Below, in pieces: positions 11,865 through 38,800 of a stretch of 64,000 nt of DNA. The translations under genes and the position numbers were made by a program. Under the pieces are notes generated by a model. It searched no databases, had not been told where the DNA came from, and saw only the letters and a program-made list of their open reading frames with translations. Origin of the DNA: Amyelois transitella (taxonomy: Eukaryota > Arthropoda > Insecta > Lepidoptera > Pyralidae); contig NC_083514.1 in the NCBI RefSeq assembly GCF_032362555.1, positions 3,767,001 to 3,831,000 on the forward strand, in the 5' to 3' direction. The first letter of the stretch is position 1; each line of letters begins with the position of its first letter.

Positions 11865-12823
11865 TCACCGTGGCTGTTCAACCTATTTATGGATAGTTGT
11901 TTGACAGATTTGAAAGAGTCTGAAAGTGGATTAAGGATGAATGAATTACTCGTCAAATGTCTGCTCTATGCCGACGATCAGGTTATACTGGCGTCATCAG
12001 CGGAGGAGTTACAGGAGATGGTAAACTGTATGCATGAAGCTTTAAAAGAGAAAGGAATGAAAGTGAACGTAAGTAAAACTAAAACACTGGTTTTTGAAAT
12101 GGAGAAAGAAATGACAGCATGTAATATTTTGATTGGAGGAGAAAAAGTTGAGCAAGTGAAAGAGTTTGTATATCTAGGATCAAAGTTTACATCAGATGGC
12201 AAATGTGATAGTGATATTGAAAGGAGAGTGAACGCGGGGAACATGGTGAATGGAGCTTTGCATGCCTTTATGAGCAGTCAGAAACTATCCAAAAAGGCTC
12301 GACTGGCTGTGCACAGGGGCGTGTTGGTCCCGACATTAATGTATGGGAGTGAAAGTTGGGTATGGCAAAAGAAGCACGAAAGCAGAATAAATGCAGTGGA
12401 AATGAGAGCGTTAAGGAGTATGTTGGGTGTGAAATTGAGTGACCGGATAAGGAACAGCGTGATAAGGGAATGTTGTGATGTGAAAGAAGATGTAGTTACA
12501 GGAATAGAAAAGGGTATGTTGAGATGGTTCGGTCATGTGGAGAGGATGAATGAAAACAGGTTGACTAAGCAGATATACAAGGAGAGTGTGGAGGGAAAGG
12601 TCGGGGTGGGAAGACCTAGACGAACATATCTTGATCAAATTAAGGACGTCCTGGTGAAGGGTCAGGTCAAAAGTGCCCGAAACCGCCGAGCTTGCATGAA
12701 GAGAGTTATGAATGTGGATGAAGCAAAGGAAGTATGCAGGGATCGTGGCAAGTGGAAAGAGGTAGTCTCTGCCTACCCCTCCGAGAAAGAGGCGTGAGTT
12801 TATGTATGTATGTATGTACGTTA
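11865..12823 (+). mobile_element. 5'-truncated non-LTR retrotransposon (LINE), RT C-terminal part
   Basis: The open frame runs to TGA at 12795-12797 (302 codons from the ATG at 11889) and extends slightly upstream in frame (ASPWLFNLF just before that ATG). It encodes the back half of a reverse transcriptase: the catalytic YADD box at about residue 28, then a 'thumb' with YGSESWV and WFGHVERM and a basic tail. The endonuclease and front of the RT are missing, as in a 5'-truncated retroposition. A TGTA/ATGT microsatellite tail starts at about 12799. Partial copies of this 3' end occur at about 2.5, 3.7, 7.6, 21.25, 23.08, 32.1, 32.6 and 58.5 kb. Clade not assigned with certainty. Not functional alone. 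Confidence 0.9.
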
Positions 12824-18209: not shown

Positions 18210-19363
18210 TCAAGGGCGATAATAGTCGGGGAATCTTACCTTACGACCTGATCTAGTTTTAGTATTTTCTTCTCGATCAGGTGGGTTCTGATTCTCTGAT
18301 TGTGGTACATGACGTGTATCGGTGTCGTGTTTGTCATGCTTTTGTGAAGTATGTTTGTGTGATGCGTGATCTGGAGGTATGTGTGGAGTGGTGTCTGGGT
18401 CACACAGTATGTAGGCCGGCTTGACTCGGTCTATCGATACCGTGACTCTTTTACCCCTAACCAAGATAGTGAATACCTTATTATCTCGCTAAAGTACCTC
18501 ATATGGTCCGGAATACGCAGGTTTCAAGGTGCCACCAACCGTGCAATCACGCAAAAATACGTGAGTGCAAGTGGTTAATTCCTTGAAAACGAATGTTGGA
18601 CGTTTTCCCCCATGATGAGAGGCTGGTGTGGGCTTCAGGCTTTGGACTATATTCCGAAGTCTTGAAGTGAATTCCGTCAAGTCTAAGGGACAGTCAGTTT
18701 CAGCATCAAAAAATTCACCTGGCAGACGCAACGGTTTGCCATACACCATTTCTGCTGAGGTAGTTCGTAAATCGTCCTTGAACGCGCTGCGGACACCCAA
18801 CAATACAAGAGGGAGAGACTCGATCCAATTTGTGTTACCGTGGCAGATTATGGCAGATTTCAGCTGCCGATGGAATCTTTCCACTAGGCCATTACAGGCG
18901 GGATGATAGGCGGTTGTACGGCGATGAGTAAATCCAGCGATGCGTGAAAGATTTCCGAATAACGCTGATTCAAACTGTCTGCCACGATCTGTCACGATAT
19001 CAGCAGGGCAACCAAACCTAGAAATCCAGCCACTGAGTAAGGCTTTTGCAACTGCCTCGGCCGTAATTTCTTCTAAGGGTATTGCCTCAGGCCAACGCGT
19101 AAAACGGTCGATGGCAGTAAGACAATACTTGTAACCTTGGCATGAAGGTAATGGTCCGATCAGGTCAATATGGACGAATTTGAAGCGAGCTGCAGGAAGT
19201 TTGAAGTTGCTAGGAGGAGCACTAGTATGACGCGTGATCTTAGACTGTTGGCACGCTATGCATGCTCTCACCCAGTTCCTACAGTCCTTTTTCACCTCCG
19301 GCCAAACATAACGTTCAGAGACCAATCTGGCTGTTGCATTGGCACCAGGGTGGCTGAGAGTCT
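18210..19363 (-). pseudogene. Ty3/gypsy-type pol 3' end (integrase), truncated with a nonsense codon
   Basis: The minus-strand frame encodes a retroviral-type integrase. Its zinc-binding segment ([10 protein letters not shown] then CIACQQSK) is followed by a catalytic core with the D, D and E residues in [22 protein letters not shown] and [14 protein letters not shown], and a basic, proline-rich C-terminal tail that runs on to a stop at 18210. Two defects are visible: one in-frame TAG at 18489-18491 separates core from tail, and the 5' side stops abruptly at about 19363, so gag, protease, RT and RNase H are absent. It shares orientation with the secreted-protein gene whose 3' end is about 90 bases upstream. 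It is a dead LTR-retrotransposon fragment. Confidence 0.9.
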
Positions 19364-19453: not shown

Positions 19454-20146
19454 TTAGTCATTTTTCTTTTCCTCGCGTCGTTTTTGGTGTGCTTTGTGTA
19501 TTTCTACCAACTGTTTCACTAAATTATCAGTGTCCACATTAGAATGGACAAGCAATTCATAGGTCTTCATTTGCTCTAAAGCCTTCCAATCATCCTTATG
19601 TTTTACTCCCACATTGAACAACTCATTCACAACATCTTTTGATTTCTTTATCAAGTTGATAAGAAAGCCCGCTTTATATTCTATCTTATCGCGATTCTCA
19701 GTTTTGATTCTTTGAATGTCCTCAATTTTTTTTGTTGTGTCATGAATAGTTTGTTGTACTAAAATAGATATTTTTGTTTTCAAATGTTTATCGTGTTCTT
19801 CCTCAATATTTTTAAAAGGGTTGCTGTTTTCTTTATTATGCGATTCATTTTTTTGAACTCTAGGAGTATGTTCTTGGTCATAATTTACTTCTTGACGCAA
19901 CGCCCGGCGGACGATTTTTGGGGAGGGTGACGATGTAGGATCTTCAGTTGTCGTCAAATTGCTTTCTTTATATTTTATGATACAACTTTGCTTAGCTGGT
20001 GAAATGCTAATAAAGTTGAGACCACTGCTCGACAGGCAAGTATTCAATGCCCCTGAAAAGAAAATTTGTTGAAACCCACCATTTGAGTAACTTAATGTAG
20101 GAAAATAAGTAGCGTACTTACATATTAAACATATGGTTAGCTTCAT
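19454..20146 (-). CDS. Putative secreted, charged helical protein (unrecognised), two exons
   Basis: The exons are 20122-20146 and 19454-20052, giving 207 residues. The 69-base intron has a GTAAGT donor and a TTTTCAG acceptor. It also happens to be open in frame, so reading straight through would hide it; splicing gives a clean signal peptide (MKLTICLIWALNTCLSSSG). The mature part is Ser/Thr/Pro-rich at first and then a long Lys/Glu-rich, probably helical segment (for example LVQQTIHDTTKKIEDIQR) ending in REEKKND. Few cysteines and no domain I recognise. A TATATAA box at 20226-20232 lies about 80 bases upstream of the ATG, and AATAAA-like signals follow the stop near 19.37-19.40 kb. Divergent from the GNAT gene. 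Function unknown; a secreted tissue-specific product is an inference. Confidence 0.65.
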   Translation of the reverse strand: MKLTICLICKYATYFPTLSYSNGGFQQIFFSGALNTCLSSSGLNFISISPAKQSCIIKYKESNLTTTEDPTSSPSPKIVRRALRQEVNYDQEHTPRVQKNESHNKENSNPFKNIEEEHDKHLKTKISILVQQTIHDTTKKIEDIQRIKTENRDKIEYKAGFLINLIKKSKDVVNELFNVGVKHKDDWKALEQMKTYELLVHSNVDTDNLVKQLVEIHKAHQKRREEKKND

Positions 20147-20225
20147 AGTCCAGAAAGTCTATTACAACATGTTGCAACAGTGACTAATATGAAAATTATA
20201 AGAAACTGTTAATTTTATCGCGTGG

Positions 20226-20232
20226 TTATATA
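20226..20232 (-). promoter_or_regulatory. TATA box of the secreted-protein gene
   Basis: Reads TATATAA on the minus strand. An ACAGTT initiator-like sequence follows about 20 bases downstream, and the ATG is at 20146. The position suits a strong, tissue-restricted promoter. Confidence 0.6.
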
Positions 20233-20700
20233 ATAATCACATAATAGTTTTCCAAAAATCGTAAAAAATACAATTAACAAATAATTACCCTTCAATTTCC
20301 GAGATGTTACGTGTTAAAATGTTTATTGGTAATTTTAATTAGTGGAATTATTTATGTACTTTTATTATATTTTGGAATCTGCGGTTTGTCGTAGAATTAC
20401 TTTCTTCATATTTTGTGTCAGAACTCACCTAAGCAAGCTGTAGATTTGAATCTTACATAACCTATGTTCTACATGCAATTCTAACAATTTGGGTTGATGG
20501 CTATGAATGATATATCGCTTATTCTTATGTTTGGTTTTAGTCTCTGCTTCTTCATCCCACTCTAAAAGTACTCTACATACCTATTTGTTTACAACATAGC
20601 AAGGCGATTTTATTTTTATGATCAACCTTACCGAGTAGGCGCTACCTAAGCCGTAGTAGTTATTAGATTATTTCATAATGGGATTTTAATCAAAGCAATC

Positions 20701-20877
20701 ATGTTTCTGTTACCTACTTCAACTATGGTTAGACCAACACTATTGGATTGCTACACTTCGTTGGAGTTTAGAAACCTGATGTTTTTCTTAGCCATACTGG
20801 CCAGTGCAATCTATATAACCTTATTCATATTTATCTTTGCTTATCAAGATAGTATTAAGAAGTATTTTAAAATTTAA
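20701..20877 (+). CDS. Small ORF, 58 residues, one predicted membrane span
   Basis: ATG at 20701 to TAA at 20875-20877; the nearest in-frame upstream stop is at 20647. The first 26 residues are mixed, followed by a continuous hydrophobic stretch (roughly residues 27-49, starting LMFFLAILAS) and a short basic end (KKYFKI). The layout resembles single-span micropeptides such as the sarcolamban/phospholamban type in topology only; I see no sequence match. It ends 80 bases before the ATG of the GNAT gene on the same strand with no clear separate promoter, so it could be an upstream ORF of that transcript, a separate small gene, or chance. An AATAAA follows at about 20936. Confidence 0.4.
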   Translation: MFLLPTSTMVRPTLLDCYTSLEFRNLMFFLAILASAIYITLFIFIFAYQDSIKKYFKI

Positions 20878-20956
20878 CAGACTTCAACTGAAATTTTAGT
20901 GATTTACTTGAAAATTAAAATTGTTTGTATTAAAATAAATTGGAAATTGAAAAGAA

Positions 20957-23463
20957 ATGAATTCTTCGATTATCTTGGCGAACCTTTCTAAATCATTGAT
21001 ATTTAAACAATTAAGAAAATGCCACAGTGTTTTTGGTTATAAAGATATTTTGAGCCCGGAGAAGGTAAGTCATTCCGTTTCAGACAAACAGAAAGTTTCC
21101 CGAGTTTTGATGCTTCGTCTTCGTTTACTTTTGCAGTCTGGCCGCGAGGTTTCATTGTTGTGACATTAAGTATTTTTGGGTAAATTTGTTTGGTTCATAT
21201 GTAGCAAAATTGTCATAGAGAAGACTAAGATGAATCATACATAAATACATAAAATCACGCCTCTTTCCCGGAGGGGTAGGCAGAGACAGGTAGTCTTTCT
21301 ACTTGCCACGATCTCTGCATACTTCCTTCGCTTCATCCACATTCATAACTCTCTTCATGCAAGCTCGGCGGTTTTGGGTACTCTTGACCTGACCCTAAGA
21401 TAAACGAAACGAAAAGCCTGAGAAAGAAGGGGTTTTCTGGCAAAAGAAATATTGTATTTATATAAGGGTACCCCAAAAAGAGCTTCTTTGACGATTTTCC
21501 CAATTTTCAGAATTTAGAAAAGTTCTCGATATTGCCGGTGATAAGCGACCAGCATGACTTGGCGATGAAGTTAATAAAGCAGTACTGCCTCAGCGAACAC
21601 GTGATGGTGAAGGCGAAGAAAATGGATTTGACCAACGACCGGGCACTGGATGAATACCTCGTTGGTATACTTAAACAAGGTTGGTGATTCGTGGTTACTT
21701 CAAAACTTCCATAAAGTTTAAGACAAAGCTACAGATAAAGATTTAAGATAAGAGGACTAAAAGTATGATTAATGCAGAAGACGAGATACGCAGGGCAACA
21801 CGAGGCGTGGCGCAAGCAAAGGGTTCTTGACCTGAAAATTAATCTTTTCCTTAGATTTTTGAAAGGCTGTTTTTTTGCAGAATTTTAGACTACACTGATT
21901 TTTAAACTCCGTCTGTGTTAAAAACTGCCTAGCTGTAGCTAACATTAATGTTAACTTCTGATATGTATGTCCCTTTTCGAACTATTGCGATCACTTGAAT
22001 AGTTGTTGTTAATTTTCCTTAACTTTTAGGTAATACTTTACTAGCAAAAACTGATACCGACGAAACAGCCGGCATTTGTGTGTGCTTCGCCAGCTGCCAA
22101 GTGGACGCCAGGAACCTTCGGACTTATGCTTTTTACCGACAGGTATCCTTTTGAATACCCACTAGCTTTCTTTTAGCTAGATTCCGCCCGCGTAAAAACC
22201 CAGTTAATTTACCGTACACTATTTACGTGTATGTACATAATTTCATGGAGATAGCTTCAGTTGTTTCGCCGTGAAAGACGGACAAACACACTCATTTGTA
22301 TGGATTGTGTTTATAGAGATTATTGTCCACAATTTGTTTGTGTTTTACAGGATCCAAATACAAAAGACTTCCTAAACTTTACTGCGAAACTACAGGAGAC
22401 TCCAAACCTGTGGGATGTATTTAAACAACAAAAAATATTCGAGGTAAGTACTCACCTCTCATCAGCTTAAGATAATAATGAAGCCGACCTTAATGAAGGA
22501 AGTCTCCTTGGGATGTAGGTACAATAAATTATCGACAAAAAAAACCTGAGAGATTTGAAGACGTTCCAAATTTTCATACAAAGCTAAATAGGACTTACAA
22601 CTAGAAAATGTTAGAAGAGAATACTTATACTATATTTTCCATCTAGACCATGCTATTAATTTCAGATAAAAATGTTAGCGGTACTCCCACAATTCCGGCG
22701 GCAAGGATTGGCCGCCACGCTGGTGGAGAAAGCCAGGGAGTCTTCCCTTGATCAAGGATACAAGATCGTAAGGATGGATTGCTTGAATCCTTACGAGTGA
22801 GTTGATAAATTTAATAACCAATATAATTTGAGCCTCAAATTCTTTCAATTAATTACAAAAGGGTAAAATGTACCTATTTAAAAACTGAGATCAACGGAAC
22901 AGAATCTAAAATAGGAGAAGCCATTGCACAATATTGTTTTTTTGCCATAATTGTTCTTGCCCATTGCCCACCCTGAGACAAAGCGGTCTCCACCTATGAT
23001 TAAGGACTGGGTATTGGTCCTATAATGCCAATAAAGACATCATTACATTGATTCGTTATTTACTTAAAAGTATTACTCGGAGGGGTAAACAGTTCATCTT
23101 TCCTCTTGCCACAATCACTGCATACTTCTTTTGCCTCTGCTCCATACACCAATTTTTTTGGAAGTTAGCTGACCTACATATTTGTTTAAAGCCAACGTTG
23201 GAAATTCACAATACTATAGTGGACTTGCACTAAATATAGACTTTCCTTTTCTCTACAGCTACAAAATCGCCGAGCGAAACATGATGACCTGCATAGTCAA
23301 GTTTCCTCTTCACAAACTAAGAGGCCCCAACGCGCCATTTGTAAAACGCAACTCGAAACACAACTGCCTGGTCAGAGTCTACGTCGACGCCCGGACAGAC
23401 GACAACCCGGACAGAACCGCCCTTAAGAAGAGGCAGGCTGACCTTGAAAGCCTCATTGAGTGA
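20957..23463 (+). CDS. GNAT-family N-acetyltransferase (insect arylalkylamine NAT-like), six exons
   Basis: The exons are 20957-21064, 21511-21679, 22030-22142, 22351-22443, 22666-22796 and 23259-23463, all with GT-AG borders and matching phases; 272 residues. The acetyl-CoA binding motif A is clear at residues 164-181 (MLAVLPQFRRQGLAATLV, with the R-x-x-G-x-A loop RRQGLA at 172-177). Insect relatives of this length acetylate arylalkylamines such as dopamine or octopamine or related amines. The substrate cannot be told from sequence; the family includes many uncharacterised members. The first 30 residues are basic and Ser/Leu-rich (KSLIFKQLRK) and might be a mitochondrial presequence. Introns 1 and 5 contain LINE 3' fragments. 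An AATAAA follows at about 23473. Convergent with the PPT1-like gene, 457 bases apart. Confidence 0.9.
21248..21405 (-). mobile_element. LINE 3' fragment in GNAT intron 1
   Basis: Reverse complement of the 3' end of the 11.9-12.8 kb LINE: 'cacgcctctttcccggag', 'gggtaggcagaga', 'acttgccacgatctctgc', 'ctctcttcatgcaagctcgg'. It is one of the better preserved short copies. A smaller relative is in intron 5 at about 23078-23150. Confidence 0.8.
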
Positions 23464-23920
23464 TGTTCGTACTAATAAAACTTTGTCTGGTAGGTCTGTC
23501 TATCACATTTGCGAAATTTATTTATTCTTGAAAACGACCACGAAACTTATGTACATGTCTGTCAAACTTATAAAAGTAATGAAGCCATTATTAATTTTAA
23601 ATAAATTTCTTAGTTTACAATGTATTCAGTGTCAATTTAATATTTTGTAACCATCTGTATGTTAGTAAGCGGAGCACGCGAGATCTTTATAACTATTTTA
23701 AAAAAAAGATTTTCAGCATGTATGTATTTATTATTGTGTTCATGTATTATACTATTTATTATGAGAAAATATCTTTCATTCTTCCTGTTTTCATGTATTT
23801 ACCTAAAGTACCACTGATACAACTATAAATTTGTAACAATGTTTATTATCATTAAGTCAACTAATTAACACACTAAAATGACCGATAAGAGGCTATCAAA
23901 TGCGAATTAAAAAAGCCAGA

Positions 23921-26869
23921 TCAAACGCTTATCGTGCTAAATGAAGTCAAATAAACTGAGATTATTTTGTCCATAAACCATTTTAGTGTTAATTTTAAAT
24001 GAATGTCAGGAACAGAAAGGAAGACCAACTTTTCATTTTCCATCATCTTCTTGAGGCCCAGGCGGTCCTGGAAGAAATTATGGAGCCTTGTCATAGTGAT
24101 GCATTGTCTATCGAAATTAGATTCCTAGCTAACTTTTTTCGGCTCTCTACTAATATAATTAATAAGTAGGTAATTATTGCAGTACGTAAAGCCATTAGCG
24201 AAGGTTCTTATAGAGTTTCGCGGCTTTCATCAGAGTCCAGAGTATCCTACTAGCGAAACGTACTATTGGTAAAACCTACGGCTAAAAACTAAACTAATTA
24301 AGATTTCATTTCAGAAAAACTACTTACGCAAGAGTTTAGCTCATGATTGAGTCTGATATTGCTCTATACGTGCAACTGGGTGCAGCTGTTAAGCTTTGAG
24401 AACCCGAGGTCCGCTTTCAATTAATTTTTCGCCAATTTTACGTAGTTTTACGAGTACCTATGAGGACGCAAGTACCAATATCTGTATTTTGTGAACCTAA
24501 TGTGTAAATGATTTAAAAAGCATTTTACCTGCTTGTAAAGATCAGACTCCTGTAGCGTTTCCAGCATTTTGTCTTGCCCAGGCTTGTAGAAACCAAACCA
24601 AGAGCTCTCCTTAGGCTGGGTGACATTGTCATTCTCAAACTTGACCATTACAAAATGGTCCAGTTTATTTAGATTGTTAATATAGGTCTGGTTTATAGAT
24701 AACTCGTTATTGATATCTGATAGAAACTGGCTGGACCTTTTGTAATAGTCTTGGTAAAGTGGGTCGTGCCAATATGTAGCTTGAACTAAGTCGCTCTGGA
24801 CCCAACTGAAAAGATATTACTTACTTGAAATTAACTACTTTGCATCTGCTTGTTTTGCATTTTGCTCGGTAGAACCAAGAAAACATGTCAAAACTGAAGT
24901 GGGGACGATATTTTTGCTTGTTATTGCTTTTTACTTGATCGAAGAAGTGTTAAAACCCTCAATAGTCTCGACGCCCATAGTAACGATAATTTTGTTGTAA
25001 ATTTTGAAGCGGTTCATTTTGTGGTTAGATAGTTTTGGCCGTATGCTGATCAGTACACTACATTTGGTGAGCATCTAAAACCATCTTTTTTCACATTTAA
25101 GAAAGTCAAATATCAGGCTTCTAAAAGGCAAAGCTTGTGGTGTTTAAATGGGAGGGAAGTTAAGTATGAAAACTTTAAATACCGTCTCTATGATCATGGC
25201 TATAGTGCTACCCTGAACTTCTCTGAAAATATCTGTTATCTGAGATAATATCTCTTATCTAATCTATCTAATTCATCTGAGATAAATGAGGTCGCAACCA
25301 GGAGAATGATTATGAACGAAAAATACCGCCTTCTACTTTCTCTTAACCGTTAATTTCGGTTACATCCTGACCTCATCGGAGGATGGTCCTGGGTTGGATA
25401 AGTCAACCAGAGAAAACCCTATTAAAAGATATCTTACCTTTGATAAGCGGCTTGTTTGAGCAGCTCTCTAATGTAATGGCATGACGTCATCAGCAAGGCT
25501 CCACAATAAGGGTTGCCATACACGCCCTGGTGCGGGCTACCTAAGGTGATTAGGTTCTTTACAGGACCAATTTCATGACCACACCGCTGTACCATTGCGC
25601 GTCTGTAAATTTTCAACTGACTCATTATATTCGCAACTTCCGAGAACGTTTTTTCCATATACTACAGTTAATGGCAGAGAATTAAATGGGGCGGAATAAA
25701 AAAAATGTATATGTGTCGGTTAAATTACACAGATTGAGTTAGCCTCGAAGTAAGTTCAAGACTTGTGTTGCAAGATCTAAAGCAACGATATTTTATTTTA
25801 TAATTAATATTTATAGAGATTTATACGTAAGACCCAAGAAAATCAGAATTGCTATTAGGTCTTGCTGATCTTAATGATATAGTACTTATATTTCAGAGCT
25901 GCACTGCACTAATTAAACTAGCAGTGACACGGATTCGAATTATAGTTCCGATGGCACCCCCGGGGTTGTACCCAAGGGGAGCCTTGGGTTCAGAATGAAG
26001 AAAAGTTCATTTCTCATCATGCCCTCAGGCGATTCAAACACGACTACTGTATCACAGGCAAGCGCTAATGTGCTCAAAAGCACAGAGGCCGTCACAAAAG
26101 AAAAAACAATAAGATATTTAAAATTCTTACAACAAAAGACCGCCTTGAGCGAATCCAATAGCATTAAATCCATTCTTCAACTTGGGGTCTTCTCCTAACA
26201 TCTTACAGACGTATTCCACTTGTGCATTTGCACTCATGAAGTAACTATTGCGGAGATCATCCAGTGTCGTGTTCCCGATTTTAATAGACACCACATATAC
26301 GCCTGGGATTGCTTTTTCTAGTAAATGCTTGTAGCCACCAACGCTATAGATCACGCAACATGTGTCACCTGTTTGATAAAAATATAGGTGAGTGTTCTCT
26401 CCTAGCGTTAATCCTAGTTTCATCCTCACCTCTCCGGAGATGAGCACGAGATGCGCTTTTTTGATCATAATCCTGTCTCCGTAGCATGGCACGCTGGACG
26501 CCATTTTTATCGCGCGAACAACTATCGCTGTTTCGCTTTTTATTATGACGTGAAACGTGACAGCGACAGTTTTCGCGCGATAAAAACGGCTTCGCGCGTT
26601 TCATGCTACGAGGGCTGAGCATGTTCTTACACGAAGGGACCCATCGCATCGATATCTACAACCTTTGCAGTGGAACCTTAAGAAAGTGATGGAGTGGTCC
26701 TATTCTAAAGTCCCGGGAACCACTCGGCACAAATTTTAAGTACCCACTTATAGGTATCTAAAAAAATATAAACCTTCTCACCCATTCCATGCCACAAAAC
26801 TATAGGTGTTGGACTCTCAAATTGAGCTGTAGCTAATGTAACCAAACAAAATATTACAAAGCACTTCAT
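23921..26869 (-). CDS. PPT1 paralogue with Ala in place of the catalytic Ser (candidate pseudoenzyme)
   Basis: The exons are 26782-26869, 26131-26368, 25438-25602, 24529-24805 and 23921-24067: 304 residues, no stop or frameshift. It follows palmitoyl-protein thioesterase 1 from end to end: signal peptide (MKCFVIFCLVTLATA), VLWHGMGDTCC, the PHQGVYG loop, YWHDPLY, SSWFGFY and the DRLGLKK exon. PPT1 is a lysosomal hydrolase that removes palmitate from Cys of proteins. Its triad is Ser115, Asp233 and His289 in the human enzyme. Here the Asp (D223) and His (H279) remain, but the nucleophile is Ala103 (GFAQGG, codon GCT at 26148-26150). Nearby conserved loops also drift (GSPHQ for GGQHQ, PDIHL for GDHL). 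Several N-glycosylation sequons are kept. It lies about 1.3 kb downstream of the intact paralogue. Unlikely to hydrolyse thioesters; a binding or regulatory role is inference. Confidence 0.9.
25697..25870 (-). mobile_element. 5'-truncated tRNA-derived SINE in intron 2 of the PPT1-like gene
   Basis: The blocks 'ttacacagattgagttagcc', 'cgaag', 'agacttgtgtt' and 'gacccaagaaaatcagaat' match in order the body of the tRNA-headed SINE at 31.15-31.75 kb. The tRNA-like head is missing here. Confidence 0.7.
26476..26619. mobile_element. Foldback MITE, copy 2 of 3, in intron 1 of the PPT1-like gene
   Basis: Arms 'gtagcatggcacgctgg...' and '...cgcgcgtttcatgctacg' pair, as do 'tttttatcgcgcgaacaact' and 'ttttcgcgcgataaaaacgg', around a 'ttattatgacgtgaaa' centre. 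The fold is close to a full-length hairpin and is the cleanest of the three copies. It lies 107 bases upstream of exon 2. Confidence 0.75.
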
Positions 26870-28214
26870 ATTGAAAATATATAAAAAGTACTGATAAATC
26901 TTGTGCGGTTATAATATTGCTAGCGTCCAGTTTCAAGGAATCAATCGCACTGCAAGGTGCTAAGATGTGCCAACCTAATCATAATGGAAAGATATGGCAC
27001 TAACTTCCAACAGTAAATTAAACTCATTAATTAAAACTTTGCTTTGAATGAGTTCGGTTTGTTATCTACTTCGAAAATCATCGTTACAAGTACCTACCTA
27101 CCTACTTATTTTCAAGATATTATATTTTTCTACATAATCTTTCATTAAAATTATCAAGAACAAGAAATAAGCATTAGTTTGGCAATGTTGGATGGCTCTA
27201 GAATACTTTTTCTCTATTGACTTGAAAGAAAACAGTTACGTTGTTATTCGCACAGGCACTTAGCTTCTTCACATAAAATATACCATGTCATCGCCCGAAA
27301 AAATTAAAAATCGAGGTCTCTCGTGACCGGACAGCTGGTCTTTATCTCGCTCAAAAGATATACAAAACAACGTGGCAATCCTGTCAGCCTTCTGGGCACT
27401 TAACTCGGGACTAGGATCTGCCGGGACCTGCATTTTTGTAAATAAGTGTTAGCTATATATTTAGGTGTATTTATTTATTATGGTACATATAAAATGTGCA
27501 CGGGCCCATGGGGGCCCGGTCATTTGGGAGGCGTTCATGGGGCCGAAGCCAACATGAAGAGGCCCTTTGGTACCTTTTGTTCTTAAGTGAGATGGCTGTA
27601 GCTGTGGGGGATATGTATTATTAGTAATTATTTATTTAAAAAAAATAATTAGTTTTATTTCGGTTTATTTTAGTTAAATTTATAGTTTTTAAATTAGTTA
27701 TAATTTATTTAAAACAAATTTTACTGAGTATAAAGTTTTATGGATATTGAAGCATTAAACTGTAGAAATTATTGCTAGGTTTATGAAATAAAAGACTAAC
27801 GTTGATTTTTATATTTTTATTTTTATAATAAAGATGAAAAATATATTTATCGATCTGAGTATTCATTGGTAAAGTAAGAGAGCATTATAACTTTTATTAT
27901 CACTTTTATGTGCATATGGTACTGGGCCAATACTTTAGTCTAATTCTTTCCTTATCTTTTAAAACAATTTTAATATTTCTATTTAACAATTTTTGTTATT
28001 AAATAATTAAACTTTTTAACATTTCATATTGGAACACTAGGATAAATTTCTAACACAATATACTGATAATTAATGTAAGCCTATTTTTACCAGTGCCAAC
28101 CCTGTTTGTGATAAAACAGCAAGTACGTTTTACCATATTCATTTCTATAATATTCACAGTATTATTTCCCTTACGCTAAAATATTTTTCTTTTTCAGTAA
28201 AGCTACTTAATGAT
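26870..28214. other. Intergenic region between the two PPT1 copies
   Basis: It holds the promoter side of the PPT1-like copy and the 3' flank of the intact copy. 27290-27620 is GC-richer, with a small CGGGCCC/GGGCCCG stem at about 27500; it may be a remnant of a retroelement 3' end, but I cannot name it. The rest is AT-rich without ORFs. Confidence 0.4.
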
Positions 28215-31200
28215 TTATTTAGCAGCTAAATATTTTTTGATAATATTTTCGATGAACCACTCTTGTGAGAATTGCAAATGGTCGCCGGGGGACGTGAGGA
28301 AGACTAATTTTCCACTTTCATCCATTTTCTTGAGTCCAAGACGGTCCTGAAACGTAAAAAATCTTTACTAGTAGGTATCGTTTTTGGTTCCATGGTCATA
28401 AGGGGCATTAAATTCTTCAATACTAACACTTATAGACAAGCGCCAGAATATTAATAATGAGAATACTCGGAAGAAAACAAATCTCACGGCTGATAGGCAT
28501 GCAGTCGAGCATAAAAACATTTGCGAACGTTATTGTTTTAGAGCCGTTTGTGCCGTGTGGTTCCCGGCACCAATACAAAAAAGAATAGGACCACTCCATC
28601 TCTTTCCCGTGGATGTCGTTAGAGCCGACTAAGGGCCCATCCCTTACAAACTTGAGATTCTTTTTTTAGGCGATGGGCTAGCAACCTGTCACTATTCGAA
28701 TCTGAATTTTATCTTAAAGCCAAATAGCTGAACGTGGCCTATCAGTCCGCTCAGGACTGTTGGCTCTGTCTACCCCGCAAAGGACATAGATGTGATTATA
28801 TGTATGTATGTATGTATAGTTTTAGAGTGTGTAAGTTGCCAATAGGTACTGGTGTCAGATTTTCCAAGGCATCTGACATGACTTTACAACTGCCATCTAG
28901 TGATGACACCCGGGACCAACGGCTTAACGCGCCTTCCAAAGCTTGTAGGAGTTCAAAGGTATTTTGTGCGACATGCGGTTACCCATCCAAGTGGGGACTG
29001 CGCCCGGGGTTGCTTAACATGCGTAAGCGCTTCAAATGCTCACGGCGATTAAGCTAACGGGCTCCTCGTACATAATTTGACAGTATATTTTAGCAGCTCT
29101 AGAATTTCAAGGCATGCAGATAGAAATACTACGATTGGGCGAAGAAATGTCATTAAAATTATTCATAGTCAATTTACTGGCAATTATCTCGGGTGCGACT
29201 GCCCAGGAGACGATCCCGGCGGCCCTAAGACTGCTATACAAGAGTAGTTGAGTCAGATAATTACACATATTAGATATATATATGTAATTCTTTATTACCT
29301 GCTTGTAAAGGTCAGACTCCCGCATAGTCTGCAACACCTTGCTCTGTCCAGGCTTGTAGAACCCAAACCAGGAGCTCTCCTTAGGCTGGGCGATGGTGTC
29401 ATTTTCAAACATGACCATTACAAAATAGTCCAGGCTATACAAATTGTCGACATAAGTCTGGTTTATTGATAGTTCATTGTTTATGTCTGATAGGAATTGA
29501 CTGGACCTCTTGTATTCTTCTTCGTTAAGCGGATCGTGCCAGTACGTAGCCTGGACAAGGGAACGTTGGAGCCAACTGGAAATTCATAAAAATATGTGTT
29601 CATTACATGGCTTAAGCAAAAGAGATAAATTATTTTTCCGAAATAACTTCAAATTTTTTTTATGATAAAGTAAGTTGTGATTCGTTCCGTTTAATAGTAG
29701 CGTTTACAGAAATTGTAGCCTTGCGATAAATTACGTACCTACAATCGATCGAGCGTTTAAGCTGTAAAAGCGTAACAGACAAAGAGATAGATTTTCGCGT
29801 TTAAATTAGAAAGATGAAGTACCTACTTACGTATCTATGGATTATAATTTGTCACATTTTGTGGTAAGGTCACAAATTATAACTTTCAGTGTGTTTTTAA
29901 GTTAAAATAAAATACTCAAATGAAAGAATCGAAGTTAAATCAATTGAACCTACTCCAAATATTGAACCGGAGTTGACAATGACATCACTTCACAAGCAAC
30001 GTAATGGATTGGAGTCTAAATCGAGTGTCAACACCTGAGGTCAACACATTTGTTTAGGTTGAGTGCGCGTGATTAGACTTCAAATGCGGACTTCCAATAT
30101 TTGCACATTATAACAAATCTTCGATGTTATTGAGTTGATATCAGTATCTAAAGTTCCATCATTCATCCAGCTAAACGTGGCCAGTCTTTTCGAGATCGTT
30201 TGATTTTTTTTGGGAATGAACAGAAGTCAAACGGTGGTTACAATTCTATAATTAAGCCATACTTCTGAATGTGGTCTTTCAGTCTATTCAAGATTGTGGG
30301 CTCTGTCTACCCCGTAAGGGATAAAGACGTGACTAACGGTGCTAGGTCAAGCGTGCTGTCGGGATAAACACCCTGGCCATGATTAACATAAATATAGAAC
30401 TAAATTCGCCATAATTATTTTGTTATAATGGTTTTATGCATTATCAGTTATGTCCACTACAGTACTTTGAAGAAAACAGAAAACATGATAAACACCCATT
30501 TTACCCTTGATAACCTTTGCACTGACAATTACTAGTACAGCCAAGAGCATATCAAAATAATTAGTGGACTCATTTATTAGAGAGATTCAGTTGTCAAATC
30601 GGTAGTGTCCGACTAAAATGCGTGTGTGTTTCAACCAGGTTGAAATCTTACCCCGGCCATGAACTCTTTTCTGAGTTACATTAGTCTAACTGCTAAGTGA
30701 TGCTCTTACGGTGAGGGAAAACATCTGGATGCCTGCACATTCAGGCAACTGGATGCGTAACCATGATCGAACCAATATGGGTTTGGTTTAGAAGCTTCGC
30801 GAAAAATCTGACTCAACTCCAAGACCACGGTCAAAGGCGCACCCCGGGTTTCATTTCAGAGAGGTGGGGGGGTGAATGCGTTATTTTCACGACAATACTC
30901 GTACTAACTGAATGTGGGTATTATAATATGATGTTGTCTATATATAAACACTTAGAATGATAAACGCGAAAAGAACTGTAACCCAAAAAACAAAATTTAA
31001 TGCAGTAGGTACATAATAGGTTGTCGTAATCATGTTTATTTGACAATCACGTATGTTAGGTATGGGTTTTTAGAAATTTTAACGAAATAATATTTAAGTA
31101 CTAAACTGTAAAGTTAGTTTATAATATACATAAGTTTAAACATGATAATAAATAAATATACCTACATATATATGTATACGGGACAGATTACACAAATTGA

Positions 31201-33569
31201 ATTAGCTTCGAAGTTCGAGACTTGTGTTATTAGATACTAACTCATCGATACTATATTTTAAAATTAAGACTTTTATAGATAAACATCCAAGACCCAGGAG
31301 AATCAGAGTAAGGCCCATAGCACACGGCGTATTTTAAACGCGCAGAAGACGCGCAGGAGACGCGCGTATAAGCACTTCAAACGCGATTCGGACGCAACTT
31401 TAGAACCTAAGCACACGGGGCGATCGTGAAACGCGTCTCTACTGCACGTAAACGCGCACCCCCTTCCCCTTCTGCCTCACTCCGCTCCTTTATACGCGCC
31501 GCGTTTGTATCGCTTCAAACGCTCGTAAACGCGCTTCATGCGCGCGCTTGTATCATCAATGCAAACGCAAGAATTGGCGTCTACGGCGCCGAAGACGCGC
31601 GTTCCTAATACGCGCGTCGCCTGCGCGTTTAAAATACGCCATGTGCTATGGGCCTAAGTTCCTTTTACATCATGCCCTGACCGGAATTTGAACCCGGGAC
31701 CTCCGGTGACACAGACACTAGCGCACTACCGCTCTGCCATTGAGTTTGTCACAATACTGTTAGTGGGTGATTATTATTGTGTATAAACATTAGCCTGCGA
31801 TTGTATAATTTCCTTGAGTTGTGTATGTTACCGTCATATATAACATAATTATACATAAACACGTTTTATCTATAATCTTACAAACCACCCAAGTGTAGGC
31901 TTAAGTATGTAGTTACTTGAAATATCATCTTTCCTATTAGATAATACATACATACAATCACGTTTTTATCCCTTACTAAATGGCCACATTTATACGCATG
32001 GCTTTATAACGGAAGATTAAAATAGTTACAGTCCATCACCTAAACAATGTATCCCAAGTTTATTAGCCCTTCCTTGATTGCCACTCCAATCTTTGCTTCT
32101 TTCATTTCAGAAAAAATCTACATCACACCTTTGTCCCAAAGGGGTAGGCAGAGACTTTGTCTTGACACAATCTCTGCATACTTCTTTTGTTGCATCCACA
32201 TTCATATTTCTTTTCGAGAAAGATCGCCAGTTTAGGATACTCTATTAAAAAATTAATTCGCATATAACCTGTAATAAGCGGCATAGTTCAGGAGCTCACG
32301 GATGTAATCGCAGGACTTGTGCGACAGGGCTCCACAGTGAGGGAGCCCGTACACGCCCTGGTGCTGACCTCCTAACGTGATGAGACTCCTCACGGGTCCT
32401 ACTTTGTGACCACACCGCTGTACAACTGCTCGGCTGTAATGATACAAAATTTTGAAACTATGTAGTTATACCTATATTTTGCTAAATAGGAAACAAACAA
32501 TATCTTTAAAAGGGAGATGTTAGGAGTACTGGTAATTGTTAAGTATGAAGTAGCAATAAGTCAGGAAGAAAGCAGGCGAGGTCTGTAGGGATTGTAGCAA
32601 GTGGAAATCCATAGTTTCTGCCTACTCCAATGGGAAACATGTGTGATGGTAAGGTAAGGTTCGACTGGCAAAGAACTGCATTAAGTCCACCTGTTATGCT
32701 TTAAATGCATTAAGTTTAAATACATACATATAATCGGGTCTTAATCCCTTGTGTAGTAGGCAGAGATAGCAGTCTTGAAGAAAAGCAAAAAAACTGAAAG
32801 GTCACATTCAGCTATATCGCTCAATTATGGAATCAAAATCAAAACTATGTTGTTGTATTGTATCATAAAGTAGTTTCTAAAACATATACAAATAATATTC
32901 AATTAATACTTACAAGAATTGACTTCCTTGCGAGAACCCTATAGCATTAAAACCATTTTGTAACTTTTTATCTTTCCACAGCACATCACAAACATATTCT
33001 ATTTGGTTATTTGTGTACATAAAGTAACTATTTTCAAAATCCTCAATTACAGAGTTCCCGATTCTCAGAGAAAGAACATAGACTCCTGGTATTTCATTTT
33101 CAAGAAAATATTTAAATCCTCCAAGACTGTAGCCTGCACAGCAAGTGTCTCCTGTTGACAAGAGATAAAAAAAAATAAACTTCCCTATTCAAACAAGTAT
33201 AAAAACATTTTTATCATTACATGGGCTAAAGACAGAATGAAATTTCTCTTATTTCTACTGACTTTGCATGGGTAGCAATTATAAAGATAAAACTTTTTCA
33301 GACAACCCTATTGCAAATATTTCAAACAGGAACAAAATCCGTCTATAACTTTCGAAGATTAGTGCATGGAATGTGCAAACAGATAGAAAATAGGGAGACT
33401 TTATAACACGTAGTGCTAACAGAAATTGTCTTGTTTGTTTACGAGATAAGATACCAGAAATTGTTATTATGAACTTACCCATTCCATGCCACAAAACAAT
33501 TGGTGTTGGATCGCTTGATTTAACTGAAGCTATCTTGATCAGAGTTAAAGTAAAAATACACCACTTCAT
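28215..33569 (-). CDS. Ppt1: Palmitoyl-protein thioesterase 1, intact triad, five exons
   Basis: The exons are 33479-33569, 32914-33151, 32269-32433, 29299-29575 and 28215-28346; 300 residues. I use the ATG at 33569, which gives a signal peptide aligned with the other copy; an in-frame ATG at 33599 is possible. The nucleophile is Ser104 in GFSQGS (TCG at 32931-32933), with Asp in ENDTIAQP and His in [32 protein letters not shown] and YWHDPL are all kept. It cleaves palmitoyl-Cys thioesters in the lysosome; loss of the human gene causes infantile neuronal ceroid lipofuscinosis. Exons 2, 3 and 4 have exactly the lengths of those in the downstream copy (238, 165, 277), proof of tandem duplication with introns. 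Intron 3 (2.7 kb) is filled with SINE, MITE and LINE pieces. The exon 3 donor (GTTATA) is weak. Confidence 0.94.
28548..28815 (+). mobile_element. Tailed retroposon (SINE-like), near full length, in PPT1 intron 4
   Basis: Runs from 'gccgtgtggttcccggcacc' through 'ctccatctctttccc', 'gcgatgggctagcaacctgt' and 'gttggctctgtctaccccgc' to a (TATG)n tail. With the copies at 43585-43857 and 44325-44580 it defines the full-length layout of the family. Chance ORFs on it should be ignored. Confidence 0.85.
28830..29065 (+). repeat. Dispersed repeat, 'gggaccaacggcttaacg' type
   Basis: A GC-rich block with 'cccgggaccaacggcttaac', 'gcgccttcc', 'acccatccaagtggggactg' and 'ttgcttaac'. The layout looks like a retroelement 3' region common in moths. 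It contains part of a chance 107-codon ORF with no support as a gene. Confidence 0.45.
30170..30335 (+). mobile_element. Tailed retroposon copy, divergent, in PPT1 intron 3
   Basis: Has degraded 'ctgaatgtggtctttcagtc', 'gggctctgtctaccccgtaa' and 'gggataaagacgtga' blocks. A separate 'cggtgagggaaa' family fragment follows at about 30690-30790 ('caggcaactggatgcgtaac'). Confidence 0.6.
31150..31745 (-). mobile_element. tRNA-derived SINE interrupted by a MITE, in PPT1 intron 3
   Basis: Read on the minus strand, the head (31745-31660) has a pol III A-box-like TGGCAGAGCGG and a B-box GGTTCAAATTCC, in a tRNA-like fold that is degraded in the acceptor stem. The body then continues as 'gattctcctgggtcttgg', 'aacacaagtctcgaactt' and 'ctaattcaatttgtgtaat' on the far side of an inserted MITE (31312-31654). 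The tRNA identity is not clear. It is a SINE head, not a working tRNA gene. Confidence 0.75.
31312..31654. mobile_element. GC-rich MITE with TAA target duplication
   Basis: Terminal inverted repeats of about 36 bases start GGCCCATAGCACA and end with the mirrored TGCTATGGGCC, with one or two mismatches. TAA is duplicated at 31309-31311 and 31655-31657, as in PIF/Harbinger-type insertions. The 343-base body is unusually rich in ACGCG/CGCGT words. It sits inside the tRNA-derived SINE and so is younger than it. No coding capacity. Confidence 0.85.
31935..32255 (-). mobile_element. Retroposon and LINE 3' fragments in PPT1 intron 3
   Basis: About 31935-32100 is a degraded minus-oriented tailed retroposon ('ccatcacctaaacaatgtat', 'cccaagtttattagccc'). 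About 32115-32255 is a minus-oriented LINE 3' end ('ccaaaggggtaggcagagac', 'ctctgcatacttc', 'catccacattcat'). Exon 3 of PPT1 begins right after it, at 32269. Confidence 0.6.
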
Positions 33570-33599
33570 ACTGGCTACTGTTTTGATAAAAAAAATCAT

Positions 33600-34465
33600 A
33601 AACAGATTTTATATTTTAAGAGCAGCTAGATACACGACCGACTAAGGAAACCGCCGGGTAAATATTAACTTATCATTTTATAACTGTTTCTAATTGACAA
33701 CTGAACACTAAATCGTAGTAGAAAAGAACGAGCACGGCAGCTTCTGATGTTGCACCAATATGAGGATACTTTGTTTTAATTCAAAAGTTTTTTATTAACA
33801 ACATCAAAAACTCTTGCTTTCATGCAAATATTAATCTCACGGACTCAAAACAAAATCAATCAAAACAAAACAAAGTGAAGGAAGGGAAAATAAAGATATG
33901 CTGACTGACGGCTGACGTTGACGTCTTTGTATTTCTGACATATGACATTGACCAAATGTCACTCTCTTTTTTTATCTAGGCTTGGATTGGTAGACCATGC
34001 AGTTTCATTTGTAACTAATATTCTGATCTTACCTTACTTACATTCTTCTTGCAATTAGGTAATAGTCAATAGTTGTTGCGATGTATTTTCGACATCTTTC
34101 GGATTAAATTTTGTAATTGAAAAAAGGCGGCTTAAGGTTACCAGCCCACAGTCATGATGAAACTTTGGAATAAATGTGTACATTAATTTTTCCCTTGATT
34201 AAAAATCTGCCCGATAAAAGTACCTAGGTACTAAAGTAGCACATTGCACTCTACACACTACATCTCTACCAAAGCAGCATTAAAAGTTGCGCTACATGAA
34301 AGTGCTCATTTCCTTACGACATCTACAGGAAAGTAGTGGTGTGGTTTAAGAATATGAAGTATGTATACTGCTGAAGTAAGTTTGCGTACCTAATTTTATG
34401 AATTTAGGTATCATTAGGTAGGTACTTTAGTGATAATTTAAGTAACTTTACAAACTAACAAAAGA
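33600..34465. other. Upstream flank of PPT1
   Basis: Holds the likely promoter of the intact PPT1 gene. No TATA box is seen at the expected place. A short GTTGACGT patch lies at about 33915. No ORF is supported. Confidence 0.35.
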
Positions 34466-34469
34466 AACC

Positions 34470-34746
34470 GATAAAGAAGATCGGGTCAGCAAACTGTGGC
34501 AATAGAGTAGACAGGCCACAATTCTCGAAGAGCTGATGGCCGATGGGGCTAGAAACGTTAAATACTTAGGTACCGGAAAGCGCAGCTTAGGACGGCTTCC
34601 TGCGATATGGACTGACGACCTGGTGAAAATCGCGAGAAAACGTTGGATGCAGGTTGCTTCTAATAGGACGAGGCGGAAATCAATGCTACGGCCACGGTGA
34701 GGTCTAAGTTATGCAGTGGCCGGCTCGCGTAACAATCATGATGATG
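34470..34746 (+). mobile_element. LINE 3'-terminal fragment ending in ATGATGATGA
   Basis: A GC-richer segment carries 'gaggaccggataaagaagat'-like starts, 'cgcagcttaggacggcttcc', 'atggactgacgacctggtga', 'cgttggatgcaggttgct' and 'cagtggccggctcg', then an ATGATGATGA end. In translation a W-T-D-D-L block of the type found near the C-terminus of LINE polyproteins is recognisable. Broken by stops. Confidence 0.6.
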
Positions 34747-35546
34747 AACTACTCAAAAAGCCCTTTATGCAGTCATCATTTCTTTTATTATAACCGCCGG
34801 ACTACGAATAAAGGAAAGTAAGTACTTATTATGTATTTAGGTACCTAGTGTTAGGAATGAGAAAGGGATAATAAATAAAATTGCTAATTATACTGACAAT
34901 TTTATTAAGTAGGCATTTGTTGTCATTATATATATCTTTAAAAAAAAACTAAGACAAATTATTTGTAACCAGTTGGGTAGTCTTAAAATATACATATTTA
35001 TAACAAAACATACCTACTTACCTACTTACCTACATACAAACATACTCGTAACTAAGAGACAACATGTAAGTTTAAATTTTTTTGATATTTTATACACGAT
35101 TAATGAATTCCGTGTTTAACCTGACGTTTTTCGGCATAGACGATTGAAAATGTAATCGCTTCATATTTCAAACACAAAAGCTGCTGTTATCTACTAGATA
35201 TTATTTATCCATTCATTTTGATAAAAATTTGCTATTGGAAGTAAGTACAACTAATTTCAAAATTTCATCAAAACGTATAAAAGGTAAGGTAGGTAGGTAG
35301 GCATGCCATTGTCAAAGAGTTGGCCAATTTACATCTGCTATTCTGTTCTGGTACAAAACAAATCGACAAACCTTGTGAAACCAAATCTAATTATTTATAT
35401 GGCCTCTAATAACATTCGTTTCACACTCGAATGTAGTAGATATCTTAAACTAAATATTATATTAATCTTTTAAAAACATATCTTATAAACAAATTAGTTA
35501 ATAAATCTATCGATCACAGTCTCAGAAGAAAATCACTATAAAGTCG

Positions 35547-35552
35547 TTTATT
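35547..35552 (-). terminator. Poly(A) signal of the membrane-protein gene
   Basis: AATAAA on the minus strand, about 250 bases downstream of the stop codon at 35802. Confidence 0.5.
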
Positions 35553-35801
35553 ATACAGCTGAATCACGTAGGGATCATTACTAGAAAAATATTTGAAGTA
35601 TCTAAATCACACTCTGTGTTATGTCTATCAAATCTTAGTGAAAATTGCCTCTTGGAAGCACTAAGTTTGCGTCATTCTGCTAAACCGTCAGAGTATCGTG
35701 CTCTAGATACCATTCTATTCTATCGTGCTAGGTGTAGGTGATCCCAAATTAGCACACCACTAGATTGAACAGCCTCGTTAACAATAATCAGATCATTTAG
35801 T

Positions 35802-38800
35802 TTATAAGATCCTCATAGAATCGGTGGGTTTGATGATGTTTCTCTCTAAGCTCAAGAGTTTTCTTTGCGATTCTTTATAATCGCTGGAATCTGATGATTC
35901 GTATTGCATATGGCGGTTGTATAGTCTGATTCTTCTTGCCCTTGTGTCGGAGTCATATCCTAGGGTCTGTGTGCTTCCTTTCCGCGACCTGAAGGCTATC
36001 CTGTAAGGCGTACTGCTTTGCACGTCTGACATTGATCGGATATGTCGTCTCAGTTTTGAGTCCTTGGTGAGATTTGTGAAAACCAACGATCTCTCCATCT
36101 TCGCGTCTTCTACTGACCTGGAAAGAGGAAAAATTACGTGTTATCATATGAGTACTGCATTTATCTGACTTTTGAGAAAATCTTTTCTTATGACGCTTGC
36201 AAATAATGTCCGTCTATAGGTGAATCATCAGAGATTAAGTAGATATGTAAATATATAAAGTTGCAAATATATCAGTCAAATTATAATCAATCTGTCACTT
36301 GTACACTTTTGTACTATACGAATATCATACTATTATCCTCTACGCTCTACCAACAGAAGTTGGAACTATTGAATGTACCGCTGCGTGTTAAAGATACTTA
36401 ATGCATATGAACGTTCAGTGTAACTTTATGTACTGTATCATAAATACCTCTCTATTGAAACACTATTTTATTTTTGTGTTGGGTGGTTCTCGATACAAAC
36501 ATTCATCCCCTCTTTTATCCCCTCTTTCACAATTTTTTCGCAATAAATAGCATTTTCTGCTTCAGGGTCTATCTCCGTACGAAAATTTTCAATTTCGTCA
36601 GAATCGGTTTAGTGGTTAAGGTGCGCCTGCGTAACAGACAGCCAGGCAAAGTTACTTTCGCATTTATAATACTGCCGCGCAATTTAAGAACGCAGTAAGT
36701 ACCACTTACTGCGTTTATGGTTGTCCTATATGTAGGAGATGCTGACATTGCGATCTACAAGAATCAAAGACCCGTTTTCTTCTATCTCGTTTAGAAACGG
36801 AAATACGTTATAACATAAATGCAGTAATGAGCAGATTTTAATTTCACTTTCATAATATAACTGCAGTAAAAACACTTACTTATTTAGTATTATGTAGAAA
36901 CATTTCATAATGGTATTAGCAACACAACAATAGTGCAGTATTTACCAATAACGTCATTTTTTATATGTTGCCATGGTAAAAGCAAATGACTCTCACATAA
37001 TATTCATGCAGCAACTACAATTATACTGCGTTTATCGAAAAGCTCGTCGGAATTGTTTTTAGGTTTAACAAGTCATGAACGCGGCAACTGACAATTACGG
37101 CATTTATTGTACGTTCATGTATTTGTTTATCACTAGAACGATATTAAGTTTAATGTCTTAAGATCACTTACTGCATTAATGCTTCAGCAATATACGTCTA
37201 CTATTAAGTGAAAAGGGCCGTTCGCGCAAGTTACGGTTTAGGACCAAGAGACTCGTTAAGACAACTCTTTAAGAAAAAAACCTACAGACAGTAGCGTCCC
37301 AGTACATTTTTGATCTTATAATGTATGTTAGGAAAAATACCTCTTTTTTTCAAAAAGTTAGTGCCACAAGTGATAGAAATTTACGTAATAAACATAAATT
37401 AGTCATGCCGTTTCATAGGCTTAGCAAAGTCAGTAAATAATTTATGGGGAACTGTATACGATTTTATAATAGGTTGCCGGAGTCTGTTCTTGATATGCCC
37501 AACCGAAAATTCAAAGAGTATGTAAAGAAAGTACTTTGTGAGAAGGCTTATTATAGGACTGATGATTACCTTAATGATAAAAACATCTGGCTTGAGCTTG
37601 GCACAGGAACCTCGTAATTAATTGTAGTTTGATTTGAACTTAAATGAAAATTCAGTACACTCTGTACATAAATCTTTTTAAAATTGGCAATCCATAATAT
37701 ATATATATATATTATATATATATTTTCTTTTTTCAATATTAAATCTCATAAATATATAAATCTGAACAATGTATTCTCTCGTCCACATTCTATTCTAAGT
37801 TTAATTAATATTGTGAAGTTGACGTTGTTGAAGAAAATGCTGCAGTGCAGTTTGTTACCGCTTCTTCTGCACTGACGCCTTGGAAGCGGCAGTAAACTTA
37901 GTTTTTAAGTAATTTATTTGACGTCAACCAATGTTGTTAAACCATACGTTTTGACAATTATTAAGCGATATATAGTATCCTATAGTAATGAATAAAAATT
38001 TTGAATTTGAATTGAATTTGAAATAATGCATCGAAAACAAAATGCTCAAAATGTTAAATCATCTCTCTCAAGTACATAAAAAAAAATTACTTATATGAGA
38101 TTTAATAGATTAAATTAAATATAGATTTATTTTTTTCAATATGATTAGTAATTGTTAAATAAAACTTATAATGAAACATTTACATTATTATTCAAACTTT
38201 TGAACCTCAGAGGTTATTATTTCGTACTTATCGAATTATTAATTTTATTTATTAAGCAAATGGACATGTTCCAGGAAGGTTTTTAATTTATTTTATAAGT
38301 TTTTGACCTTACGAATCTCAAAATGGGTGCCATTTTATACTTAATTATTAGTTATAATTTTATTCTGTTAAGCAAGTGGAGATATTTTTTTGATGACCAA
38401 GAAGGTTTTTTATTTATTTTATAAGTTTTTGAACTGATTGTTACCTTACGAACCTCGAAATGGGTGCCATTTTATACTTAATTATTAGTTATAATTTTAT
38501 TATGTTACGCAAACGGAGATATCTTTTTAATGACCAAGAAGATCTTTAATTCATTTTATTTTTTATTTTGGTATAGTTCAAAATGAAAGCGTTACTGACT
38601 TAAGATAAATGCAATGTAAATGCAATATTACTGCGCTATATAATCTGTGATAAGTCATTTCCTTTCATGTTTTTTATTATCATAAATGCAGTATATTATA
38701 AAGTTACGGCGCATATATTGTGTTGCAAAATGTAAAATAACATTAATTCACGTAACCTATGTGCTGTAAATAAAAGAATTTTAGCATAAATGCCGTAAGG

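Follow-up and report, generated by a model that had tools for sequence, protein, structure and literature searches.

Palmitoyl-protein thioesterase 1 (PPT1) acts by acyl transfer to Ser115, together with His289 and Asp233. Dead α/β-hydrolases are well known in insects, and the neurodevelopmental inactive relatives of cholinesterases are adhesion proteins. For PPT1 itself, the accessible portions of the literature describe the catalytic triad and the human mutations that cause neuronal ceroid lipofuscinosis (PMC3500292), and report that human PPT1 S115A is inactive (PMC13045223). Catalysis has been lost in esterase relatives such as the inactive insect carboxyl/cholinesterases, which include neuroligins, neurotactins, gliotactins and glutactins, as well as Bombyx CCE subclade 002, which lacks the serine and for which the accessible text suggests substrate binding (PMC3017765). 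Insect yolk and venom lipase-like proteins likewise have an incomplete triad, with lipid binding or carrying suggested in the accessible part of PMC7240578. The accessible parts of the literature on PPT pseudoenzymes, insect PPT tandem duplication and Ppt1 pseudogenes or duplication contain no example of a dead PPT1, and the titles and opening abstract lines of publications on Amyelois transitella and palmitoyl make no mention of the gene described here.

We analysed a pair of PPT1 genes in a 64,000-nucleotide stretch of the A. transitella genome (the window). One of them, copy B, resembles PPT1 (PF02089; PDB 1EH5, 3GRO) in its whole-length homology, six disulphide cysteines, Asp233, His289 and oxyanion loop, and has the gene structure of its neighbour, copy A. 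Unlike PPT1, it carries Ala in place of Ser115 and changes at Q119, F120, G141, Q142 and V236, sites at which all, or all but one, of the 127 other aligned homologues agree. Copy B belongs to a different family from the inactive carboxyl/cholinesterases; the non-catalytic yolk and venom proteins differ from it in belonging to lipase rather than PPT families, and in forming whole clades, whereas the state of copy B is found in one species. Judged from sequence, copy B offers a genuine, clear-cut instance of a PPT1 paralogue, confined to one lineage, that has lost its nucleophile.

A tandem pair of PPT1 genes

The two genes, of five exons each, lie in tandem, head to tail, on the minus strand, and both were spliced by hand with GT-AG introns:

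28215-33569, minus strand: copy A, PPT1 gene with intact triad (GT-AG splice sites and 300-aa frame; Pfam Palm_thioest, 287.8 bits)
33479-33569, 32914-33151, 32269-32433, 29299-29575 and 28215-28346, minus strand: exons of copy A (hand splicing)
32931-32933, minus strand: nucleophile codon TCG of copy A (Ser115, human numbering; spliced frame)
23921-26869, minus strand: copy B, PPT1 paralogue without nucleophile (GT-AG splice sites and 304-aa frame; Pfam Palm_thioest, 279.7 bits)
26782-26869, 26131-26368, 25438-25602, 24529-24805 and 23921-24067, minus strand: exons of copy B (hand splicing)
26148-26150, minus strand: GCT (Ala) of copy B at the catalytic Ser position (spliced frame; all 127 other aligned homologues have Ser)

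The exons measure 91, 238, 165, 277 and 132 nt in copy A (300 aa) and 88, 238, 165, 277 and 147 nt in copy B (304 aa). Hand splicing upheld the account given in the initial annotation of five exons per gene in the same phases, with exons 2 to 4 of equal length, and of a copy B frame open over 304 codons; the spliced frames likewise read GFAQGG, with GCT at 26148-26150, in copy B and GFSQGS in copy A, as had been claimed. The disabling lesions of a pseudogene (stops, frameshifts or broken splice sites) are absent from the five exons of copy B, all of whose introns are GT-AG. Across 299 aligned codons the two proteins share 65.6% identity, with dN of 0.23-0.25 and a large, method-dependent dS of 0.97-1.51 (two methods). 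Recent gene conversion between the copies was ruled out, as identical runs reach at most 20 nt and exon 4, the most similar, has 77.5% nucleotide identity.

Scanning the genome with PF02089 (327 Mb in 33 contigs, with 11.4 Mb in the contig of the window) gave ten exon matches at two places, one being the PPT1 pair and the other, on contig C1, a PPT2-like gene, and no further PPT1 copies. The nucleophile-box consensus pattern is exact in both copies and occurs with a mismatch at one other place. No tRNAs were found in the window, and no RNA families at 20000-40000. Elsewhere in the window, a 653-aa open frame at 54058-56019 has a DDE_1 transposase-like domain, and transposable-element fragments with reverse transcriptase and integrase lie at 11889-12797 and 18489-19325.

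Retained features and the missing serine

Copy B matches PF02089 over positions 1-254 of 254 with 279.7 bits (cut-off 26.8), scores 308.9 bits against PPT1 and 81.3 bits against PPT2 in the PDB, and, in a tree of PPT1 homologues built without PPT2, falls together with its Plodia orthologue and both A copies. It retains Asp233, His289, Gln116 and Met41 in the alignment, along with the oxyanion-loop sequence WHGMG. A signal peptide, Asp, His and most cysteines had been listed as kept; Asp233 and His289 are indeed present and the N-terminus is signal-peptide-like by eye, but "most" falls short for the cysteines, as all six that presumably pair in the disulphides of PPT1 are kept. The N232 sequon is lost via T234N, with a new sequon, NVT, two residues further on, and the C-terminus is longer and divergent.

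Of the residues expected in an active PPT1, Asp233 and His289 are thus present and the serine of GxSxG is missing (GFAQGG). The nucleophile box contains Ser in 141 of the 142 different homologues fetched in overlapping protein searches (the top 120 of 1091 matches, the top 120 of 1832, and all seven of a third search), and the sole exception, P0001, is copy B itself. The partial or exon-level homologues of the third search have Ser in all seven cases, with no copy B orthologue among them by eye. Ser115 is invariant in 127 of 127 homologues in an alignment of 131 sequences, which comprises the four moth copies (two each from Amyelois and Plodia) and 127 others, and leaves out P0001, three long or fused models, three proteins of more than 330 residues and the seven fragments of the third search. 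Two firefly proteins, P0002 (Abscondita, 523 residues) and P0003 (Lamprigera, 526 residues), contain two Ser boxes each, which suggests tandem firefly PPT1 copies, perhaps fused in annotation.

With Ala at position 115 the acyl-enzyme step is impossible, and therefore thioester cleavage by that route is not expected; it is near certain that copy B would lack PPT1-type hydrolysis. The proposal of a catalytically dead PPT1 homologue is supported by this residue together with the inactivity of human S115A, as given in the accessible text of PMC13045223.

Substitutions around the catalytic centre

Near the active site, Amyelois B also carries Q119L, F120L, Q142P, T234N, G287D and D288I (human numbering); Gln119, Asp288 and Gln182 are named as triad neighbours in the accessible text of PMC3500292. 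At the 86 sites with at least 95% conservation among the 127 homologues, the A copies depart twice each, Amyelois B seven times (sites 115, 119, 120, 141, 142, 236 and 292) and Plodia B eight times. G141S and V236T are common to both B copies, and site 292 differs from the consensus in both, whereas S115A, Q119L, F120L and Q142P are special to Amyelois B, and Plodia B has its own Q182L and D188E at otherwise invariant sites. Val236, near Asp233, is shared by all 127 other homologues, yet the two A copies have Ala there and the two B copies Thr, a departure from the consensus in both duplicates.

Among the four copies, 24 residues are unique to Amyelois B, of which 20 have a human number. Of the latter, seven are no more than five residues from the triad, compared with 2 of 37 in the three remaining copies together (Fisher p 0.006, hypergeometric p 0.005), which taken singly give 1/11, 0/8 (one of 9 dropped) and 1/18. 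The widths used (4, 5, 6 and 8) were picked after the data were seen, and over all of them p ranges from 0.005 to 0.055 (hypergeometric) and from 0.006 to 0.038 (Fisher), or from 0.003 to 0.037 and from 0.006 to 0.044, respectively, when seven further pocket sites are included. Pocket contacts were taken from the accessible part of PMC3500292 and from general knowledge.

The L119, S141 and P142 of copy B are the PPT2 states, as seen in human PPT2 and the Amyelois PPT2-like exon, and Chrysoperla P0099, whose Ser is intact, likewise combines Q119L with Q142P. The pocket changes alone therefore do not mean inactivity. Q119L and Q142P were considered as marks of a dead enzyme and set aside as unsafe on account of P0099.

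Duplication history

Plodia interpunctella has two PPT1-like proteins, one orthologue per copy, both listed with an equal-sized contig. In a tree of PPT1 homologues without PPT2 (62 sequences, 295 columns), Amyelois A groups with Plodia P0005 (support 99), Amyelois B with Plodia P0004 (100), and all four together (100). Since A groups with A and B with B, the duplication predates the Amyelois/Plodia split. Achroia and Ostrinia have one protein each among the matches listed, outside the four-copy clade, by which a single gene in these moths is not proven.

P0004 (PPT1-like isoform X2), the Plodia orthologue of copy B, shares G141S and V236T with it; unlike copy B, it keeps GFSQGG and GDH and has changes of its own (Q182L, D188E). 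As Plodia B keeps Ser, the nucleophile loss is placed on the Amyelois B lineage. The search of other Lepidoptera suggested in the initial annotation, with a comparison of the Ser/Ala state, did yield an orthologue, in Plodia, but this has Ser, and among the homologues fetched Ala is found in Amyelois only. What is new, by this comparison of sequences, is that the duplication is older than the split and the serine was lost on the Amyelois B lineage.

The public gene model

The NCBI protein P0001 (palmitoyl-protein thioesterase 1, Amyelois transitella) is identical to copy B over 275 residues, which run from residue 46 of P0001 and cover exon 2 and all that follows it. Its start codon, at 26504 (ORF 26127-26504), lies inside a repeat:

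26479-26617, no strand assigned: dispersed repeat, complementary to itself, within the first intron of copy B (3241 candidates, of which 40 were scored; 39 of these lie elsewhere)

This repeat is found on many contigs, and at many places has a second match on the opposite strand. With the start in the repeat, residues 1-45 of P0001 are therefore read from intron 1, and the hand-spliced exon 1 of copy B, parallel to that of copy A, appears more credible than the NCBI start. AlphaFold is insensitive to point changes. For this reason, and as P0001 is without exon 1, its predicted model (39 sequences; mean pLDDT 80.2, with a weak loop at 151-161), whose best PDB matches are PPT1 (TM 0.88-0.90 by target), is weak support. 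P0001 is the sole member of its cluster, nothing from the lgn source being grouped with it; copy A is also absent among the matches listed, so this absence tells little, and that of copy A holds within the length limits of that search. The public name is a trap for annotation: the proteins listed include a single Amyelois PPT1, plainly called "palmitoyl-protein thioesterase 1", and it is the copy without Ser.

Constraint and alternative explanations

We favour the reading, with a probability of about 0.55, that copy B is a lineage-restricted tandem PPT1 paralogue that has no nucleophile, keeps the fold, and is probably a non-catalytic binder of acyl-lipid or substrate. A less probable account, though one to be taken seriously, is that copy B is a redundant duplicate in decay, for which selection on catalysis ended recently, so that the serine and the pocket drifted first and a functionless gene has yet to gain a stop. 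Consistent with decay, the B branches of the tree are longer than the A branches in both species (0.274 versus 0.114, or 2.4-fold, in Amyelois; 0.216 versus 0.135, or 1.6-fold, in Plodia), and the unique changes of Amyelois B outnumber those of Amyelois A with each of four outgroups: 41:17 with Achroia (p 0.002), 42:20 with Ostrinia, 33:9 with Tribolium and 25:13 with human (p 0.07). The otherwise invariant Gln182 and Asp188 altered in Plodia B, and the longer, divergent C-terminus of Amyelois B, point the same way. Against decay, however, the conserved-site departures of Amyelois B fall mostly around the active site, where its unique changes also cluster rather than being spread, and six of six cysteines are intact. 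Moreover, the unconstrained share of the branch would be ~6-11% with the remainder evolving as fast as Plodia B, or 23-36% with no change at all in the remainder, both figures being rough owing to saturated dS and an assumed clock.

In relative-rate counts, Amyelois B and Plodia B do not differ significantly with four moth outgroups (27:24, 31:22, 27:21 and 25:21; p 0.27-0.78) or with human (15:16), and Amyelois B is faster with Tribolium (26:9, p 0.006). By a rough calibration on A/B dS, with an A-copy clock assumed and dS saturated, the Amyelois B branch is at ~23-36% of neutral. Some 80 unconstrained missense changes, approximately the branch length, would be expected to bring ~5 stops, and copy B has none; for 10-20 such changes the expectation is 0.6-1.3 stops and zero is unsurprising. 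A short neutral phase at the end of the copy B branch is possible, and the whole B clade may be relaxed, because 8 of the 86 conserved sites are altered in Plodia B. The claim that selection has kept copy B is partly supported, by the open frame and by a branch little longer than that of the Ser-bearing Plodia B, but constraint before the loss of Ser is inseparable from constraint after it. Compared with a conserved pseudoenzyme, the frame is open and the branch length moderate, and the Ala state is found in one species only.

An artefact of assembly or base calling, or a rare allele in a species whose common allele has Ser, is highly improbable. The Ala codon GCT is one base from TCT, and P0001, which has Ala, comes from a contig of equal length (11409249) and is therefore no independent confirmation; TCT is hypothetical, however, and the copies are not one base apart at this codon as first claimed, since copy A has TCG and two bases differ. 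One wrong base would also be insufficient for the six other changed residues near the active site, and the assembly contains no second haplotype with Ser, because copy B exon 2 matches only itself there. Cofactor-free α/β-hydrolase dioxygenases offer a precedent for a general base that works without a nucleophile. That copy B could similarly be some other enzyme, using His289-Asp233, gains from the retention of both residues and from the PPT2 states at 119, 141 and 142, as if the pocket had been reshaped, but we consider it very unlikely: Gly287 and Asp288 beside His289 are changed, there is no sign of a new catalytic group, and no second member without Ser occurs among the 142 homologues fetched.

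Proposed mechanism and significance

Under the favoured reading, that of a non-catalytic binder, a tandem duplication of PPT1 before the Amyelois/Plodia split would have been followed by initial changes in the copy B pocket with Ser still present, as suggested by the G141S and V236T common to Plodia B. The Amyelois lineage would then have lost the nucleophile, with change of further triad-adjacent residues, leaving copy B unable to form the acyl-enzyme. A secreted or lysosomal copy B might hold acyl chains or S-acylated peptides uncleaved, thereby carrying lipid or modulating active copy A next to it; acyl binding and modulation are suggested because the fold is kept and triad-less relatives exist among insect esterases and lipases (PMC3017765 and PMC7240578, in their accessible parts). 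The more specific proposition of a PPT1 pseudoenzyme under selection, whose pocket was remodelled to the PPT2-like L119/S141/P142 before or with the loss of Ser, and which now modulates its active neighbour and has S-acylated peptides or acyl chains as ligands, is doubtful, although a pseudoenzyme function of copy B is possible. A natural PPT1 without its nucleophile could trap or regulate S-acylated proteins, and would reveal the capacities of the pocket without hydrolysis.
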